A stretch of DNA of 64,000 nt from Hydrogenovibrio sp. SC-1. Its GTDB lineage: Bacteria; Pseudomonadota; Gammaproteobacteria; Thiomicrospirales; Thiomicrospiraceae. The notes beneath the pieces are model-generated. The model ran no database searches. It had not been told where the DNA came from and saw only the letters and a list, made by a program, of their open reading frames with translations. A program made the translations under genes and the position numbers. The stretch spans positions 1 through 64,000 of the forward strand of contig NZ_PKGB01000007.1 in the NCBI RefSeq assembly GCF_002848135.1, in the 5' to 3' direction. Positions 3,823 through 31,149 of the stretch are shown piece after piece. Each line of letters begins with the position of its first letter. The first letter of the stretch is position 1.

Positions 3823-4893
3823 ATGACTCGATATGTGAAATCAAACCTTTTATTAATAAGTGCTTTTTCGATGTTTACGCTGAGTGTAAACGCATCACCT
3901 GACATCTCGGGGGGCGTTTGGCTTAACTATGCCAATAATACTACTCAGGGCGCAAAAGAAATTAATAACGGTAGCATCGAAAGTGAAGCGCTGGTGCTCT
4001 ATGCGGATGGGAAATTTGATCAGCAACTGTCTGGAAGCTATTCGTTTGAATGGCGAATGGGGCCCGGCAGTTTTACCGATAAGGTAAATAACTCAACGAA
4101 TGACAATACGACGCTGCATAAAGGTTGGATACAATTTAGTCTACCCGATCAAAAATCATTAATAGTCGGTAAATCGCAGGTGCCATTTGGCTGGAAAACC
4201 AGTAACTTCTGGCCGGGTGATATGTATCAAGCGGGCTATGGCGATCAGATGGACGTTGGCTTTAATTTGGCCGCCAGTCAGCCAAAATATGACTATCAAT
4301 TAGCCTATTACCACCAAGATGACTGGGGAAGAACCAGTACCGATTCAACCGATGATAATGGTCACTGGGGGAGTTCAAGTACCTATCGAAAGGTGCAAAC
4401 ATTTGTTGGTAATCTGGATTATAAGTTATCGTCGGATCAAACCATGAGCCTGGGGCTTCAGCGAGGAAAGCTACAAGACTTCACCAATGGTACCTTAAGT
4501 GGAAGTCATTTTGCCACGGTGGTTGGTTATCAAGGTCAGTACGATAATAGCTTTGCAAAAGCTGAAATCATTTTGGCCAATAGAACCTTGCCAAAAAACT
4601 ATGCTGCTCAAGCATCAACAGAAAGAGACATTAACACCACGCGTTATGCCTTTGAGTTAGGGCGTCAACAAGGAAATTGGACTTACTATATTGATATCAC
4701 GGCTGCTACGACCCAGACCAAAGGTAATAGTACGGGTATGATTACCGCTTATGCGCCGGGTCTAAAATATGACTATGGTCCAGGCTGGATTTATGCGGAA
4801 TACTTGTCCCAAGATGGTTACTTTGGTCGAGATGGGGATATTGCCAAAACCGACTTTTCTGCGCTCTATTTAACCATTGATGCGTACTTCTAG
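3823..4893 (+). CDS. Outer-membrane porin-like beta-barrel protein
   Basis: A 356-residue protein with a cleavable signal peptide (cut probably after V-N-A, about residue 24). It is followed by alternating amphipathic strands rich in Tyr, Trp, Gly and Asn, and ends in Phe (D-A-Y-F), the classic outer-membrane barrel terminus recognised by the Bam machinery. The motif G-K-S-Q-V-P-F-G-W-K near residue 120 resembles the inward-folded region of phosphate-selective OprO/OprP-type porins (compare G-x-x-x-x-P-F-G). The substrate cannot be told. It has a strong ribosome-binding site (AGGAGATGAAAC). It stands alone between the lipoprotein and tas. Confidence 0.75.
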   Translation: MTRYVKSNLLLISAFSMFTLSVNASPDISGGVWLNYANNTTQGAKEINNGSIESEALVLYADGKFDQQLSGSYSFEWRMGPGSFTDKVNNSTNDNTTLHKGWIQFSLPDQKSLIVGKSQVPFGWKTSNFWPGDMYQAGYGDQMDVGFNLAASQPKYDYQLAYYHQDDWGRTSTDSTDDNGHWGSSSTYRKVQTFVGNLDYKLSSDQTMSLGLQRGKLQDFTNGTLSGSHFATVVGYQGQYDNSFAKAEIILANRTLPKNYAAQASTERDINTTRYAFELGRQQGNWTYYIDITAATTQTKGNSTGMITAYAPGLKYDYGPGWIYAEYLSQDGYFGRDGDIAKTDFSALYLTIDAYF

Positions 4894-26284: not shown

Positions 26285-26491
26285 TTATATTTCCTCTGAT
26301 AAGTTGTTATTCCTGACAACATTCCGAACTATACTGACGTTTAAGGAAAAATTCAAATAAAAATATTGATTGATGTCAAGAAATAAAGCTTATGACCCGC
26401 TGTAGGGGGAAAGCCATGTCCGAGTCATGCATTAATGTATAATTTATTTCGTTTTTAAATATGGTTATAGTAACAATTTTAGGAGATGTGC

Positions 26492-27208
26492 ATGCGGCCA
26501 AGTGGGAGAGCATTAGATCAGTTACGGCAAATTCAATTTACCAAGCATTTTACCAAGCATGCGGAAGGATCGGTATTGGTTGAGTTTGGCGATACCAAGG
26601 TTATTTGTAATGCAACTGTCGAAGAAAAAGTGCCCCCATTTCTACGTGGAAAATCACAAGGTTGGATTACGGCAGAATACGGGATGTTACCGCGTTCTAC
26701 CGATAACCGCATGCGCCGAGAAGCCAGTGCTGGAAAACAAGGGGCGCGCACGGTTGAAATTCAACGTTTGATTGGTCGATCCCTGCGAGCTGCTGTGGAT
26801 TTGACGGCGCTGGGTGAAAGAACCGTTTTGGTAGACTGTGATGTGATTCAAGCGGATGGTGGCACCCGTACGGCATCCATTACCGGTGGGTTTGTTGCGA
26901 TATCACTGGCCATTCAAAAGCTATTGGAAAAGGGGTTATTGAATACAACTCCTATTTTGCATGGCGTCGGATCTGTTTCGGTCGGTATCTATCAAGGTCA
27001 CCCGGTTTTGGATTTGGATTATGCAGAAGATTCTAACGCTGAGACGGATATGAATTTGGTAATGACAGAAAAGGGTGAATTTATTGAGGTACAAGGCACA
27101 GCCGAAGCGGCACCATTTTCAATGATGGAAATGAATGCCATGTTAGCCTTGGGGCAAAAAGGCATTGCTGAGTTAATTTCTATACAAAAAGCCTGTTTGG
27201 AGGCATAA
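26492..27208 (+). CDS. rph: Ribonuclease PH
   Basis: A 238-residue phosphorolytic 3'-5' exoribonuclease that trims tRNA 3' ends. Family blocks: M-R-P-S-G-R at the start, [30 protein letters not shown][20 protein letters not shown] and [16 protein letters not shown] at 26492 is six bases after AGGAG and gives the canonical N-terminus; another ATG two codons upstream is less likely. It is followed directly by rdgB. Confidence 0.97.
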
Positions 27209-27811
27209 ATGCAAACTGTGGTATTGGCAACCGGAAATGCTGGCAAGTTGGCCGAAATGCAAACGCTATTGTCCCCGTTAGGAATGGCGATAGTGCCGCA
27301 AAAGCAGTTTTTTACTGAAGAAGCGGTAGAGGATGGGTTGACGTTTATTGAAAATGCTTTGATAAAGGCCCGGTTTGCCAGTGAAAAAACCGGGTTTCCG
27401 GCGATTGCCGATGACTCTGGGTTAGAGGTGGATGCTTTAGGCGGACAACCTGGAATTTATTCAGCACGTTACTCGGAAGGCTATCAAGGCTTACCAGCGT
27501 CAGATCAACGTAATAATGAAAAATTGTTAGCCGAATTGGCGCAATCGAATAGTCAGAATCGTCAAGCCTGCTATTATTGTGCAATGGTTTTTGTTCGTCA
27601 TCCTTTAGACCCTACCCCTGTTATTGGATTGGGGAAATGGTGTGGTTCGGTTATGAGCGAACCTAAGGGCACGGGTGGATTTGGTTATGACCCCATTATT
27701 TGGATGGCTGACCAAGGTTGCTCGGTAGCTGAATTATCAAAATCATTAAAAAATTCTCTTAGTCACCGTGCTCAAGCGATTGAGCAACTGGTGATACAAT
27801 TGAAACAGTGA
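27209..27811 (+). CDS. rdgB: dITP/XTP pyrophosphatase
   Basis: A 200-residue Ham1/RdgB family enzyme that hydrolyses non-canonical purine triphosphates to keep them out of DNA and RNA. Motifs: V-V-L-A-T-G-N-A-G-K-L-A-E at the N-terminus, D-D-S-G-L-E-V-D-A-L-G-G-Q-P-G-I-Y-S-A-R-Y, G-x-G-G-F-G-Y-D-P-I-I and S-H-R-A-Q-A near the C-terminus. Its ATG follows the rph stop with no spacer, so the two are cotranscribed. Confidence 0.96.
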   Translation: MQTVVLATGNAGKLAEMQTLLSPLGMAIVPQKQFFTEEAVEDGLTFIENALIKARFASEKTGFPAIADDSGLEVDALGGQPGIYSARYSEGYQGLPASDQRNNEKLLAELAQSNSQNRQACYYCAMVFVRHPLDPTPVIGLGKWCGSVMSEPKGTGGFGYDPIIWMADQGCSVAELSKSLKNSLSHRAQAIEQLVIQLKQ

Positions 27812-27822
27812 GTTGAAGATTC

Positions 27823-29598
27823 ATGAAGAAAATCCCTTTTCACGAACTGGTTCAGCAGGAACGCTTTAACACCAAAGTCATAACCTATAATGAACTGACA
27901 AAGTCCCCCGAAGCGGCTTATCAAAAAATTGAGGTGACGAGAACCGATGTCCAACGGTTACTCACCCCTTACCTGAAGCAAAAGGTGTCAGAACAACTTA
28001 AGGCCGTTTTACCCCTGGCCTTATATTTGGTTTTATTTCAAACCTTGATATTACGCCAGCATATTATGGATGCCTCTTTGGTTGTGGGCGGTTTACTGGC
28101 AGTCATTTTAGGGTTGATGCTGTTTATGGAAGGTCTTCGGTTAGGGTTGATGCCATTTGGTGAAACCATTGGTAATAAGCTACCCAAAAAATCTACCTTG
28201 CCGGTGGTGTTATTGATTGTCTTCTTATTAGGGATTGGTGTGACATTTGCCGAACCCGCAATCGGTGCTTTAAAGACAGCAGGCTCTAATGTCGATCCCA
28301 TGATAGCGCCTTATTTATATACGTTATTAACTGATTGGTCCGATATTTTGGTGCTCGTCGTTGGGGGAGGGGTTGGGTTGGCTGCAGTGCTTGGCACCTT
28401 GCGGTTTATCTTTGATTGGAGCCTGAAGCCGTTGATTTTGTTATCAGTGATCCCGACATTGCTGATTACGCTTTATTCGATGCAAATTCCCGAACTCAGT
28501 CGTATTGTGGGTTTGGCATGGGATAGTGGCGCTGTGACCACCGGTCCAGTGACTGTGCCTTTGGTTTTGGCATTGGGGATCGGGATCGCGGCGGCGGCGG
28601 GGAGTGGTAACCAGTCATTGTCCGGATTTGGGATTGTCACTTTGGCCTCATTGTTCCCAATTATTGGTGTGCAACTCTTAGGAATTTATATTTATGAAAC
28701 GGTTCCACTAGATCAGATACTGCAAGGCGTACAAATGGCTCAAGCTTCATCGCCGGCTTGGTATGAAAAAACCCCGTTTGTGGAAGTGATTAACGGTATT
28801 CGAGCCATCGTCCCATTAGTGTTGTTTTTAGGGCTTGTGTTGTTTTTGTTGTTAAAAGATCGAATTCCCGATGTGAAAGTAGTTTTATTGGGCATTGGTT
28901 TTTCGGTAATAGGGATGGTGATATTTAATTTGGGGTTAACCTATGGCCTAGCAGCTTTGGGAACACAGGCCGGTTCCTTAATTCCGGCTGCCTTTACCGG
29001 CATTGATGCCATTTCCGATTCCCCCTTATATTGGTTTAGTTTAGGGATTGCCATTACCATTATCTTCGCGTTTATTTTAGGGTTTGGTGCGACGATTGCC
29101 GAACCTGCATTGAATGCATTGGGGTTGACGGTTGAACGGCTCACCAATGGGGCCTTTAAAAAACAAACGCTAATGATGGCCGTCGCTTTGGGCGTCGGTG
29201 GTGGTATCGCGTTAGGGGTGGTGAAAATCATTTTTGACTGGTCTTTAGCTTGGATGCTATTGCCGTTATATTTATTCGCGTTGTTGCTGACCCTGCTGTC
29301 CACTGAAGAATTTGTAAATGTGGCTTGGGATAGTGCTGGCGTGACCACCGGTCCTGTTACGGTGCCATTGGTTTTAGCAATGGGCTTGGGGTTGGGCCAA
29401 GCGGTTGGAGCAATAGAAGGATTTGGCATTTTGGCGATGGCGTCAATTGGTCCGATTTTATGTGTGCTGATTGTTGGTCTATGGACGCGATATCGCAGTT
29501 ACCGCTTGGAAAAAGAGGCTATTGAAAGTTCCGTGACATTGGATAACGGTTTGCTGAAAAATGTGACGAGTCAGGCTAAATCAAAGGGGGACAAATGA
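27823..29598 (+). CDS. DUF1538 family membrane protein with duplicated core
   Basis: A 591-residue polytopic protein with roughly 12-14 membrane helices. It is an internal duplication: A-W-D-S-G-A-V-T-T-G-P-V-T-V-P near residue 232 and A-W-D-S-A-G-V-T-T-G-P-V-T-V-P near 500, with A-E-P-A-I-G-A-L and A-E-P-A-L-N-A-L preceding them. Each half is a DUF1538 unit. The ~65-residue N-terminus is cytoplasmic and charged. No function is established to my knowledge; the repeated, polar-lined transmembrane motif suggests a transporter or channel. It overlaps the downstream PII-like gene by 4 bp (ATGA), which implies regulation by that PII-like protein. Confidence 0.82.
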   Translation: MKKIPFHELVQQERFNTKVITYNELTKSPEAAYQKIEVTRTDVQRLLTPYLKQKVSEQLKAVLPLALYLVLFQTLILRQHIMDASLVVGGLLAVILGLMLFMEGLRLGLMPFGETIGNKLPKKSTLPVVLLIVFLLGIGVTFAEPAIGALKTAGSNVDPMIAPYLYTLLTDWSDILVLVVGGGVGLAAVLGTLRFIFDWSLKPLILLSVIPTLLITLYSMQIPELSRIVGLAWDSGAVTTGPVTVPLVLALGIGIAAAAGSGNQSLSGFGIVTLASLFPIIGVQLLGIYIYETVPLDQILQGVQMAQASSPAWYEKTPFVEVINGIRAIVPLVLFLGLVLFLLLKDRIPDVKVVLLGIGFSVIGMVIFNLGLTYGLAALGTQAGSLIPAAFTGIDAISDSPLYWFSLGIAITIIFAFILGFGATIAEPALNALGLTVERLTNGAFKKQTLMMAVALGVGGGIALGVVKIIFDWSLAWMLLPLYLFALLLTLLSTEEFVNVAWDSAGVTTGPVTVPLVLAMGLGLGQAVGAIEGFGILAMASIGPILCVLIVGLWTRYRSYRLEKEAIESSVTLDNGLLKNVTSQAKSKGDK

Positions 29599-30008
29599 GT
29601 TTTCAAAAAGAAATGACCATTTTGACGGAAGTGTCATTGATTACCTGTATGGTGCCAAGAGGGCAGGGTAATGTGGTGGTTGAAGCAGCCAGAGGGGCTG
29701 GTGCACAGGGCGCGTCTATCCATTATGGGCGTGGTGCAGGGGTTCGTGAACGCTTAGGGCTATTAAGTATTACCGTGGATGCTGAAAAAGAAGTGGTTCA
29801 GATTATGGTTTCAAAGCAGCAGGAGGAAGAGGTTTTTACAGAAATGTTTATTGCCGGGAAACTGGATACCCCAGGCATGGGCATTATTTATGTGACGCCT
29901 TTAGAAAAGGCCGCGACTTATATTCCTCCACATGTGCTTGAAAAGATTGAACAAAGGCGCGCTAAGTCCCATCAAAAGCTTAATGTAGCAGAAGTGTTGT
30001 CAGAATAG
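29595..30008 (+). CDS. PII-like signalling protein, partner of DUF1538
   Basis: A 137-residue protein with the ferredoxin-like PII fold: L-I-T-C-M-V-P-R-G-Q-G-N-V-V-V-E-A-A-R, then a T-loop region G-A-S-I-H-Y-G-R-G-A-G-V-R-E-R-L-G. GlnB residues such as the uridylylated Tyr51 context are absent, so this is a PII-like rather than a nitrogen-PII protein. PII-like proteins usually bind adenine nucleotides and gate a membrane transporter encoded next to them. Coupled translationally to the DUF1538 gene. Confidence 0.8.
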   Translation: MSFQKEMTILTEVSLITCMVPRGQGNVVVEAARGAGAQGASIHYGRGAGVRERLGLLSITVDAEKEVVQIMVSKQQEEEVFTEMFIAGKLDTPGMGIIYVTPLEKAATYIPPHVLEKIEQRRAKSHQKLNVAEVLSE

Positions 30009-30017
30009 GGGAAGGAT

Positions 30018-30443
30018 GTGTTAAATCAAGACCACTGTCGCCCAGCGAAACTCATCGTCTGTATTTTAGGGAGAGGTGCAGCCCAGTCCATTGTTGAGCA
30101 GCTGTTTGATGAGAATATATTGCTGACAGAAACCTTAGTGATTCGAAATCAAAATGCGTTGGTAGCGGAAGAAGCCTGGCAAGAAATGGATATGTTGAAG
30201 GTCATTGTTGAGCCACAATTTGCCGATCACGTTTTTGAGTTGATTTACAATTTATCAGCTATCGAATTAGAAGAAGGACACTATATGTATCAGCATAATG
30301 TGCCTTGGGTAACGCATTTTGAACTGCCGAAATTGCCGAAAGAAGGTGTTCCCATCAAAGCAATAGAAAGTGGTAAAGTTGAAGTCGAAGGGATGACCTT
30401 AGAGCAATTGCAAACATTGCGCATTCGCTCTAAGAAAGGCTAA
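30018..30443 (+). CDS. Second PII-like protein, divergent
   Basis: A 141-residue protein beginning at GTG after GGGAAGG. The pattern K-L-I-V-C-I-L-G-R-G-A-A-Q-S-I-V-E-Q-L-F followed by K-V-I-V-E-P-Q-F-A-D-H-V-F-E-L-I-Y matches the beta-alpha-beta repeats of PII-like proteins, but the T-loop is short. It lies 9 bp after the other PII-like gene in the same operon. It may form hetero-oligomers with it or serve a separate sensing role; the family assignment is by pattern only. Confidence 0.65.
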   Translation: MLNQDHCRPAKLIVCILGRGAAQSIVEQLFDENILLTETLVIRNQNALVAEEAWQEMDMLKVIVEPQFADHVFELIYNLSAIELEEGHYMYQHNVPWVTHFELPKLPKEGVPIKAIESGKVEVEGMTLEQLQTLRIRSKKG

Positions 30444-30447
30444 ATGA

Positions 30448-31149
30448 TTAATTAAATTGCTCAGGCGTCAGTCCAGCCGCAATAAAGTCTTTTTTGGCGG
30501 CTTCGAACATCGCCCAAGGTCCACATAAATAGATATGGACATTAGTTAAATCAAGGTGATCGGTTAAAACTCGACGGTGAACACCTCTTTCTGCAACACC
30601 CTGAATGCCCGATAATACGGGGATATAAGTGACATTCTCATGTTGGTCAGCTAGCTGTTTCATGTCAGCATCTCGATAGAGCTCTTCTTCCGTTTTTGCG
30701 CCCCAGTAAAATTCCACTTTAGGCGGGTTGGGTCTTTTCAATAATTCATCCAATAGCGCTCGCATTGGAGCATAGCCGGTTCCCCCTGCAATCAAAATGA
30801 CCGTTTTGTCTTTTAGTTTCTTAGGAGAGGCCAATTCGTATTGATTGGTGGCGACCGAAACCCATAAAACGGCACCAGTTTCTAAGGCAAATAAATTTTG
30901 CATCCATTCAGAATGATCAGTGTCACGTATATGCAGTTCGATCAATTCATCGTCTCGACAGGCAGACGCAATGGAGAAGGGCTTTAGTTCTTCTTTATCC
31001 ATGCCCATCATTACATATTGACCCCCTTGAAACGCAAAAGAAGAAAAAGGCTTGAGCAGCATCATTAAGGTGTTGTCAGTCAGTTTTTCACTTTGAACTA
31101 AAGTCATTTTTTGTAAAGCCGTGCTGGCCATTTCAAATTGTTTTGTCAT
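30448..31149 (-). CDS. fre: NAD(P)H-flavin reductase (Fre/LuxG-like)
   Basis: A 233-residue ferredoxin-NADP reductase-fold protein. The flavin site is L-K-P-F-S-I-A-S-A, the pyridine-nucleotide site is I-A-G-G-T-G-Y-A-P-M-R-A-L-L, and the C-terminal L-C-G-P-W-A-M-F-E-A-A closes the fold. It reduces free flavins with NAD(P)H and so supports ferric reduction, ribonucleotide reductase activation or oxygenases. No [2Fe-2S] domain is attached. It is convergent with the PII-like operon (4 bp gap). Confidence 0.82.
   Translation of the reverse strand: MTKQFEMASTALQKMTLVQSEKLTDNTLMMLLKPFSSFAFQGGQYVMMGMDKEELKPFSIASACRDDELIELHIRDTDHSEWMQNLFALETGAVLWVSVATNQYELASPKKLKDKTVILIAGGTGYAPMRALLDELLKRPNPPKVEFYWGAKTEEELYRDADMKQLADQHENVTYIPVLSGIQGVAERGVHRRVLTDHLDLTNVHIYLCGPWAMFEAAKKDFIAAGLTPEQFN

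Follow-up and report, generated by a model that had tools for sequence, protein, structure and literature searches.

The region described here is part of a 64,000-nucleotide stretch of DNA from Hydrogenovibrio sp. SC-1, the whole of which we will refer to as the window. Three consecutive genes on the forward strand (Table 1) encode a membrane protein with two DUF1538 repeats and two PII-like proteins, which are designated here as PII1 and PII2. The stop codon of the membrane protein gene and the start of the PII1 gene share a 4-base ATGA overlap, and the latter gene is also provided with a strong Shine-Dalgarno sequence (AAAGGGGGAC). PII2 begins 9 bases after PII1 and has a Shine-Dalgarno sequence of its own, AGGGG, located 6 bases before its start codon. 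The genes rph and rdgB are present 11 bases upstream of this module on the same strand; recurrence of the upstream RNase PH gene is limited to close relatives, and rdgB recurs in Hydrogenovibrio halophilus. Both of them are housekeeping genes, which may have only a transcript in common with the module. Directly after PII2 there is a convergent gene for a NAD(P)H-flavin reductase/LuxG-like protein (30448-31149, minus strand), whose NCBIfam scores do not reach the cut-off of either named subfamily. Scans for promoters and terminators gave signals at background level only, and no cation-transport gene was present directly beside the module in the window. A cluster of minus-strand ORFs lying over PII1 was rejected as a gene and regarded as an antisense shadow.

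Table 1. Coordinates within the window of the three-gene module, its sequence features and the adjoining upstream genes.
Feature	Position	Strand	Basis
rph (RNase PH) and rdgB (XTP/dITP pyrophosphatase)	26486..27811	+	context, outside the module
Fused double-DUF1538 membrane protein (UmpA-UmpB-like "long form", 591 aa)	27823..29598	+	ORF, PF07556 twice, NCBIfam, AlphaFold
N-terminal extension of the long form, aa 1-65	27823..28017	+	conserved in long-form alignments
DUF1538 repeat 1	28018..28689	+	PF07556 genome scan, E 2.3e-55
Glu144, TxAEPA helix break, repeat 1	28252..28254	+	helix break 143-144 in model
AWDSGAVTTGPVTVP motif, aa 232-246, with Asp234, repeat 1	28516..28560	+	helix break 239-243
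DUF1538 repeat 2	28819..29481	+	PF07556 genome scan, E 2.7e-55
Glu427, counterpart of Glu144 in repeat 2	29101..29103	+	helix break 426-427 in model
AWDSAGVTTGPVTVP motif, aa 501-515, with Asp503, repeat 2	29323..29367	+	helix break 508-512
PII1, PII-like protein, 137 aa	29595..30008	+	ORF, profiles of aligned PII1 sequences
PII1 T-loop signature GRGAGVRERLG	29727..29759	+	pattern in long-form PII1
PII1 B-loop TPGMGI	29868..29885	+	GlnB has GDGK; glycines conserved
PII2, rapidly diverging second PII-like protein (141 aa; start codon GTG)	30018..30443	+	orthologue profiles, AlphaFold model
PII2 RNQ in place of (A/G)RG at the T-loop base	30144..30152	+	alignment
PII2 EEGHY in place of the PxGG B-loop	30270..30284	+	alignment

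The product of the first gene is matched twice by the Pfam DUF1538 profile (E = 1e-109 for the 591-aa ORF), with a score of 186 bits per repeat against the curated PF07556 cut-off of 22.6, which makes it a member of the DUF1538 family; apart from DUF1538, no Pfam family matched this protein above its cut-off. Against the NCBIfam models for UmpA (NF041627) and UmpB (NF041628) it scored 231 and 172 bits, respectively, the equivalog cut-offs for these models being 490 and 500 bits. Because these scores are far below both cut-offs, the protein is, as judged from its sequence, a relative of UmpA/UmpB and no equivalog, and its substrate may therefore differ from that of UmpAB. Among 102 DUF1538 repeats from all three forms of these proteins, which are described below, the AEP-motif position (Glu144/Glu427) is occupied by Glu in 97%, and the position of Asp234/Asp503 (AWDS..VTTGPVTVP) by Asp in 99%. 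In the AlphaFold model (pLDDT 83.7), which is almost entirely helical, all four of these acidic residues are found at or near helix breaks. The confidence of the model is low in the N-terminal extension, which is presumably cytoplasmic; this 65-aa segment would not fit into the shorter two-gene and 500-aa forms. Comparison of the model with solved folds by Foldseek and VIA-align gave no convincing match, and hence the mechanism of this protein is not readable from a relative. The best Foldseek match was to MATE (E = 6e-3, TM-score of 0.12), and the best VIA-align match, to cytochrome oxidase (Z 6.9 over 114 residues), is not meaningful for a helical protein.

PII1 by itself scores 20.5 bits against the Pfam P-II profile (E = 6e-4), which is below the curated cut-off of 25. 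However, the same profile matches 32 of 33 aligned PII1 sequences (best E = 1e-10), and the profile of this alignment matches solved PII structures at 4e-7; as judged by these profiles, PII1 plainly belongs to the PII superfamily. When the organism's own genome was searched with Pfam P-II, both PII1 and PII2 were missed, whereas orthologue profiles found both of them. The canonical features of GlnB/GlnK proteins, viz. a long T-loop with Tyr51, the B-loop GDGK and the C-loop RxR, are not found in PII1. In an alignment with the genome's own two canonical PIIs (GlnB/GlnK), its T-loop is five residues shorter and devoid of the tyrosine, the C-loop RIR is absent, and the B-loop reads GMGI instead of GDGK, so that the lysine is missing. 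As both the RIR and the B-loop lysine are lacking, nucleotide binding by PII1 is not assured; the B-loop glycines, G94 and G96, are conserved at 96-99%. The T-loop pattern GxGVRERLG is present in 43 of 44 long-form PII1 sequences, but in none of 27 PIIs from the other DUF1538 forms and none of 43 PII2 sequences. Since this signature and the N-terminal extension of the membrane protein are both particular to the long form, they suggest a dedicated contact.

Used as a single sequence, PII2 gave nothing above the cut-offs in Pfam. A profile based upon 57 PII2 orthologues, however, picks out PII1 when run against the same genome (E = 1.8e-19) and reaches PII proteins in the PDB at 2e-4, and Pfam P-II matches 29 of these 57 orthologues. 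The AlphaFold model of PII2 (pLDDT 85) displays the beta-alpha-beta-beta-alpha-beta order of PII proteins and matches the structures of PstA, CPII, SbtB, TTHA0516, and GlnK. Based upon the profile searches and this model, PII2 is a PII-like protein. Weak single-sequence matches to the OspG kinase, SBDS and HPt were dismissed as chance once the orthologue profile had indicated PII. Among solved structures, the closest to PII2 in sequence is PDB 9p1x, an entry of 12 chains named "P-II family nitrogen regulatory protein" (105 aa). These results bear out what a sequence-only reading of this region had claimed about its three genes, namely that the membrane protein is duplicated with paired motifs (the two PF07556 repeats containing AWDSGAVTTGPVTVP and AWDSAGVTTGPVTVP), that it is coupled to one PII-like gene (by the ATGA overlap, the PII1 orthologues being matched by P-II), and that the second, divergent protein is also PII-like.

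Most PII2 sequences, for instance those of Nitrospinota, have a T-loop base with ARG (more generally (A/G)RG) and a B-loop with PxGG; at the T-loop base, the R is found in 88% and the G in 94% of 77 PII2 sequences. In the PII2 of the window both of these motifs are replaced (Table 1). The loop glycines are thus kept by PII1 but not by PII2 of the window lineage, for which classical nucleotide binding appears unlikely. A PII2 with the sequences HARGE and QPGSM, intermediate between the PII2 consensus and the motif-less Hydrogenovibrio proteins, was observed at one other locus (L061, genome G425, 4035-4487). In a tree of the PII sequences, PII2 was resolved as a separate clade (support 0.87) that included neither PII1 nor the PIIs belonging to the other DUF1538 forms, and the PII1/PII2 pair is therefore old; the deep branches of this tree, with support of 0.29-0.77, are too weak to tell whether PII2 is a duplicate of PII1.

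DUF1538 was detected in 125 of the 369 gammaproteobacterial genomes drawn (about a third), mostly as two adjacent genes and sometimes as a fusion. Of the loci inspected, nearly all of those of 3.6 kb and every complete longer one have a PII-like gene adjoining DUF1538; it is usually located directly downstream, and upstream in one Thiomicrospira-like group. Three forms can be distinguished: the first consists of UmpA, UmpB and one PII, the second of a fused DUF1538 protein of about 500 aa and one PII, and the third, the long form to which the window belongs, of two PIIs and a fused protein that has the N-terminal extension and is about 580-600 aa in length. When named genomes were scanned with the long-form alignment, 80 long-form loci were recovered. 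The order DUF1538-PII1-PII2 on one strand was observed in all 76 of those with enough downstream DNA, with median gaps (75 measured cases) of -4 bases between DUF1538 and PII1 and 11 bases between PII1 and PII2, and because of this invariant gene order the module is not a chance arrangement. As indicated by their record titles, the long-form loci are spread over about ten groups at the level of phylum or class (among them Gammaproteobacteria, Nitrospinota, Bdellovibrionota, Campylobacterota, Zetaproteobacteria, Nitrospirota, Elusimicrobia, Myxococcota, Alpha- and Betaproteobacteria, and a Desulfobulbaceae), many of the records being MAGs for which single taxon assignments may be wrong. When 229 gammaproteobacterial genomes were searched with the PII2 profile, the strong matches always occurred as two per genome and adjacent. 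On these sequence grounds, PII2 is an anciently separate paralogue that accompanies PII1 in every complete long-form module. The remark, made from the sequence alone, that two sensors for one channel would be unusual thus holds for PII systems generally, but in the long-form subfamily two are the rule.

Beyond the three genes of the module, no gene was found to be conserved across the 80 long-form loci. The next commonest neighbour is a CPA1-type Na+/H+ antiporter (PF00999), which is present at 15 of the 80 loci versus an expectation of 0.71 (based upon a PF00999 density of 1.05 per Mb in 94 gammaproteobacterial genomes), an enrichment of about 20-fold; the nominal P of about 2e-15, which assumes that the loci are independent, is too small, since the antiporter loci are partly related (several are from Nitrospinota). 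PF00999 was also the top family among 104 scanned flanking proteins, with nine members, the next family having four. These CPA1-type neighbours often possess a cyclic-nucleotide-binding domain. Near the other DUF1538 forms, Kef-type antiporters were found at six loci and P-type cation ATPases at six. In one 1.9-Mb genome (G053), the sole PF00999 gene found is located in the DUF1538 locus. The neighbours of the long form point to cation transport. At several loci (L115, L138, L123 and others), a CPA1 Na+/H+ antiporter with a C-terminal cyclic-nucleotide-binding domain lies near DUF1538-PII-PII, thus placing two nucleotide-linked cation exchangers near each other.

The only characterised DUF1538 pair that we found is UmpAB. 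UmpA and UmpB of Halomonas zhaodongensis jointly carry out Na+(Li+, K+)/H+ antiport; this activity has been demonstrated solely with the two separate proteins of this one halophile, in Escherichia coli cells without their main antiporters and with the PII of Halomonas not included (PMC5484666). The window protein resembles UmpAB in its two DUF1538 repeats with their common motifs and acidic residues, and the UmpA/UmpB-type pairs that were checked in Gammaproteobacteria also have a PII-like gene adjacent to them. It differs from UmpAB in having its repeats fused and accompanied by two PIIs, whereas UmpA and UmpB are separate and such pairs have one, and also in its N-terminal extension and its scores under the equivalog cut-offs. 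The idea that there is one PII for each DUF1538 half was set aside, since UmpA/UmpB pairs, in which both of these halves are also present, have a single PII.

PII proteins are known for gating the uptake of ammonium (AmtB/GlnK) and bicarbonate (SbtA/SbtB). As in AmtB/GlnK, a PII family protein is encoded here with the membrane transporter that is presumed to be its target, but PII1 differs from GlnK in the T-loop and C-loop features noted above, and no ammonium transporter is involved. In SbtA/SbtB, a bicarbonate transporter of cyanobacteria is regulated by a PII-like protein; the module is similar to it in that a PII-like gene follows a transporter gene and the PII2 fold is comparable to SbtB, but no relation of DUF1538 to SbtA was detected by Pfam, Foldseek or VIA-align, there are two PIIs rather than one, and the substrate is probably a cation. 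CPII from Thiomonas intermedia and PstA/DarA, whose ligands are adenine nucleotides, are also divergent PII-like proteins and structural matches of PII2, but each of them is a single protein in its own context.

Based upon these observations, we consider the chances to be slightly better than even that the three genes make up a PII-gated monovalent cation/proton antiporter module, in which PII1 is a nucleotide sensor and PII2 a second regulatory subunit. The fused protein would then function as an antiporter of the UmpAB type for monovalent cations (Na+, Li+, K+) and protons, with both halves on one chain, and the sites for the ion and the proton would be formed by its paired helix breaks, which contain Glu144/Asp234 and Glu427/Asp503; the ion that is transported and its direction are inferred. 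PII1, which is co-translated with the antiporter, would presumably be trimeric, bind an adenine-type nucleotide at its inter-subunit cleft, and dock on the antiporter via its short T-loop. Antiport would thereby respond to the cellular energy status or to second messengers, as PII biology suggests. PII2 most likely works with PII1 on the same transporter, where it would provide a second input or be part of a PII1/PII2 complex, and the two might mix in one trimer, bind to different faces or act at different times; in the window lineage, where both PII loop motifs have been lost, it is probably a structural or target-binding subunit and not a classical nucleotide sensor. The earlier proposal of a PII-gated transporter with two different partners is well supported by the gene order across many phyla, the interaction and the gating themselves being predicted. 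Of the three substrate classes that it had offered, ion transport provides the best fit, in view of UmpAB antiport (PMC5484666) and the enrichment of cation antiporters; carbon transport of the SbtA/SbtB kind and nitrogen transport found no support from homology, their uptake genes being at most sporadic neighbours.

The part of this interpretation that is most readily questioned concerns PII2. PII1 could be the sole regulator of the transporter, with PII2 being co-transcribed but having some other target, such as an enzyme or gene expression. PII2 is indeed under much weaker constraint, with a mean column identity of 37% versus 61% for PII1, it lacks both motifs in the window lineage, and the other DUF1538 forms manage with one PII. 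However, its presence in 76 of 76 long-form modules across phyla, and the fact that the survey of 229 genomes revealed no strong match to the PII2 profile without an adjacent PII partner, make a separate role for PII2 doubtful. A different question is posed by the substrate. The module could transport another solute, such as a divalent or an organic cation, with the PIIs serving as energy-state gates and the UmpAB activity being a side activity or a subfamily trait. The low UmpA/UmpB scores of the window protein and the resemblance of the P-type ATPases adjoining the 500-aa form to Ca2+ ATPases are in accordance with this, but the conserved acidic residues and motifs are common to the UmpA/UmpB-type proteins and the CPA1 and Kef neighbours are monovalent-cation antiporters, and we regard another solute as unlikely.

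It is more improbable still that the module serves an autotroph for the uptake of inorganic carbon (bicarbonate), with the DUF1538 protein in the role of SbtA and the PIIs in that of SbtB or CPII. SbtB and CPII are among the fold matches of PII2, and the named relatives (Hydrogenovibrio, Thiomicrospira) are chemolithoautotrophs. However, DUF1538 has been assigned to cation/proton antiport (PMC5484666), long-form loci are also present in records of Bdellovibrionales and Myxococcota, which are not generally autotrophs, and carbon genes are seldom neighbours (two SulP permeases and two carbonic anhydrases among the 104 flanking genes), in contrast to the enriched cation antiporters. SbtA was also not among the structure matches listed for the DUF1538 model by Foldseek or VIA-align, which is weak evidence. 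Lastly, that PII2 is a decaying, functionless duplicate is hardly credible, for although it is on a long branch and has lost its motifs in the window lineage, its reading frame is open in each relative where it was found (identity is 94% for the closest relative and 56% for the second closest), it is intact across many phyla, and its model shows a confident PII fold.

Returning to the antiporter interpretation, the occurrence of the three-gene set in constant order in many distantly related bacteria suggests that paired nucleotide-sensing proteins control one ion exchanger. A more specific version, that a widespread cation/proton antiporter subfamily is under the control of an obligate pair of paralogous PIIs acting jointly (as a hetero-oligomer or as two stacked sensors), one of which has in Hydrogenovibrio turned into a "pseudo-PII" without the classical loop motifs, is put forward tentatively, its chances being somewhat below even. 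If it is correct, one membrane exchanger would integrate two signals through an obligate PII pair. A conserved link of PII proteins to a Na+/K+-proton antiporter family would bring ion and pH homeostasis within the reach of PII control, and the twin-PII version would provide a test case for why one transporter needs two PII inputs. Among 5.4 million open papers, we found neither a link between DUF1538/UmpAB and PII nor a description of a transporter with two obligate PII paralogues, and no PII link was found in papers on CO2 concentration in Thiomicrospira, cable bacteria or growth pH. PII-gated transporters and a DUF1538 antiporter are known. The transport assignment of this family goes part of the way towards refuting the sequence-only reading, which had named such an assignment as a ground for refutation, but the link of the family to PII and the twin-PII module are apparently new. 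Finally, at three Thiomicrospira-like loci (L058, L059, and L060), a 500-aa form with its PII upstream is found beside a long form with PII1 and PII2, giving three PII-like genes per locus, and in one of them (L060, Thiomicrospira microaerophila) a P-type cation ATPase is located between the two fusions.
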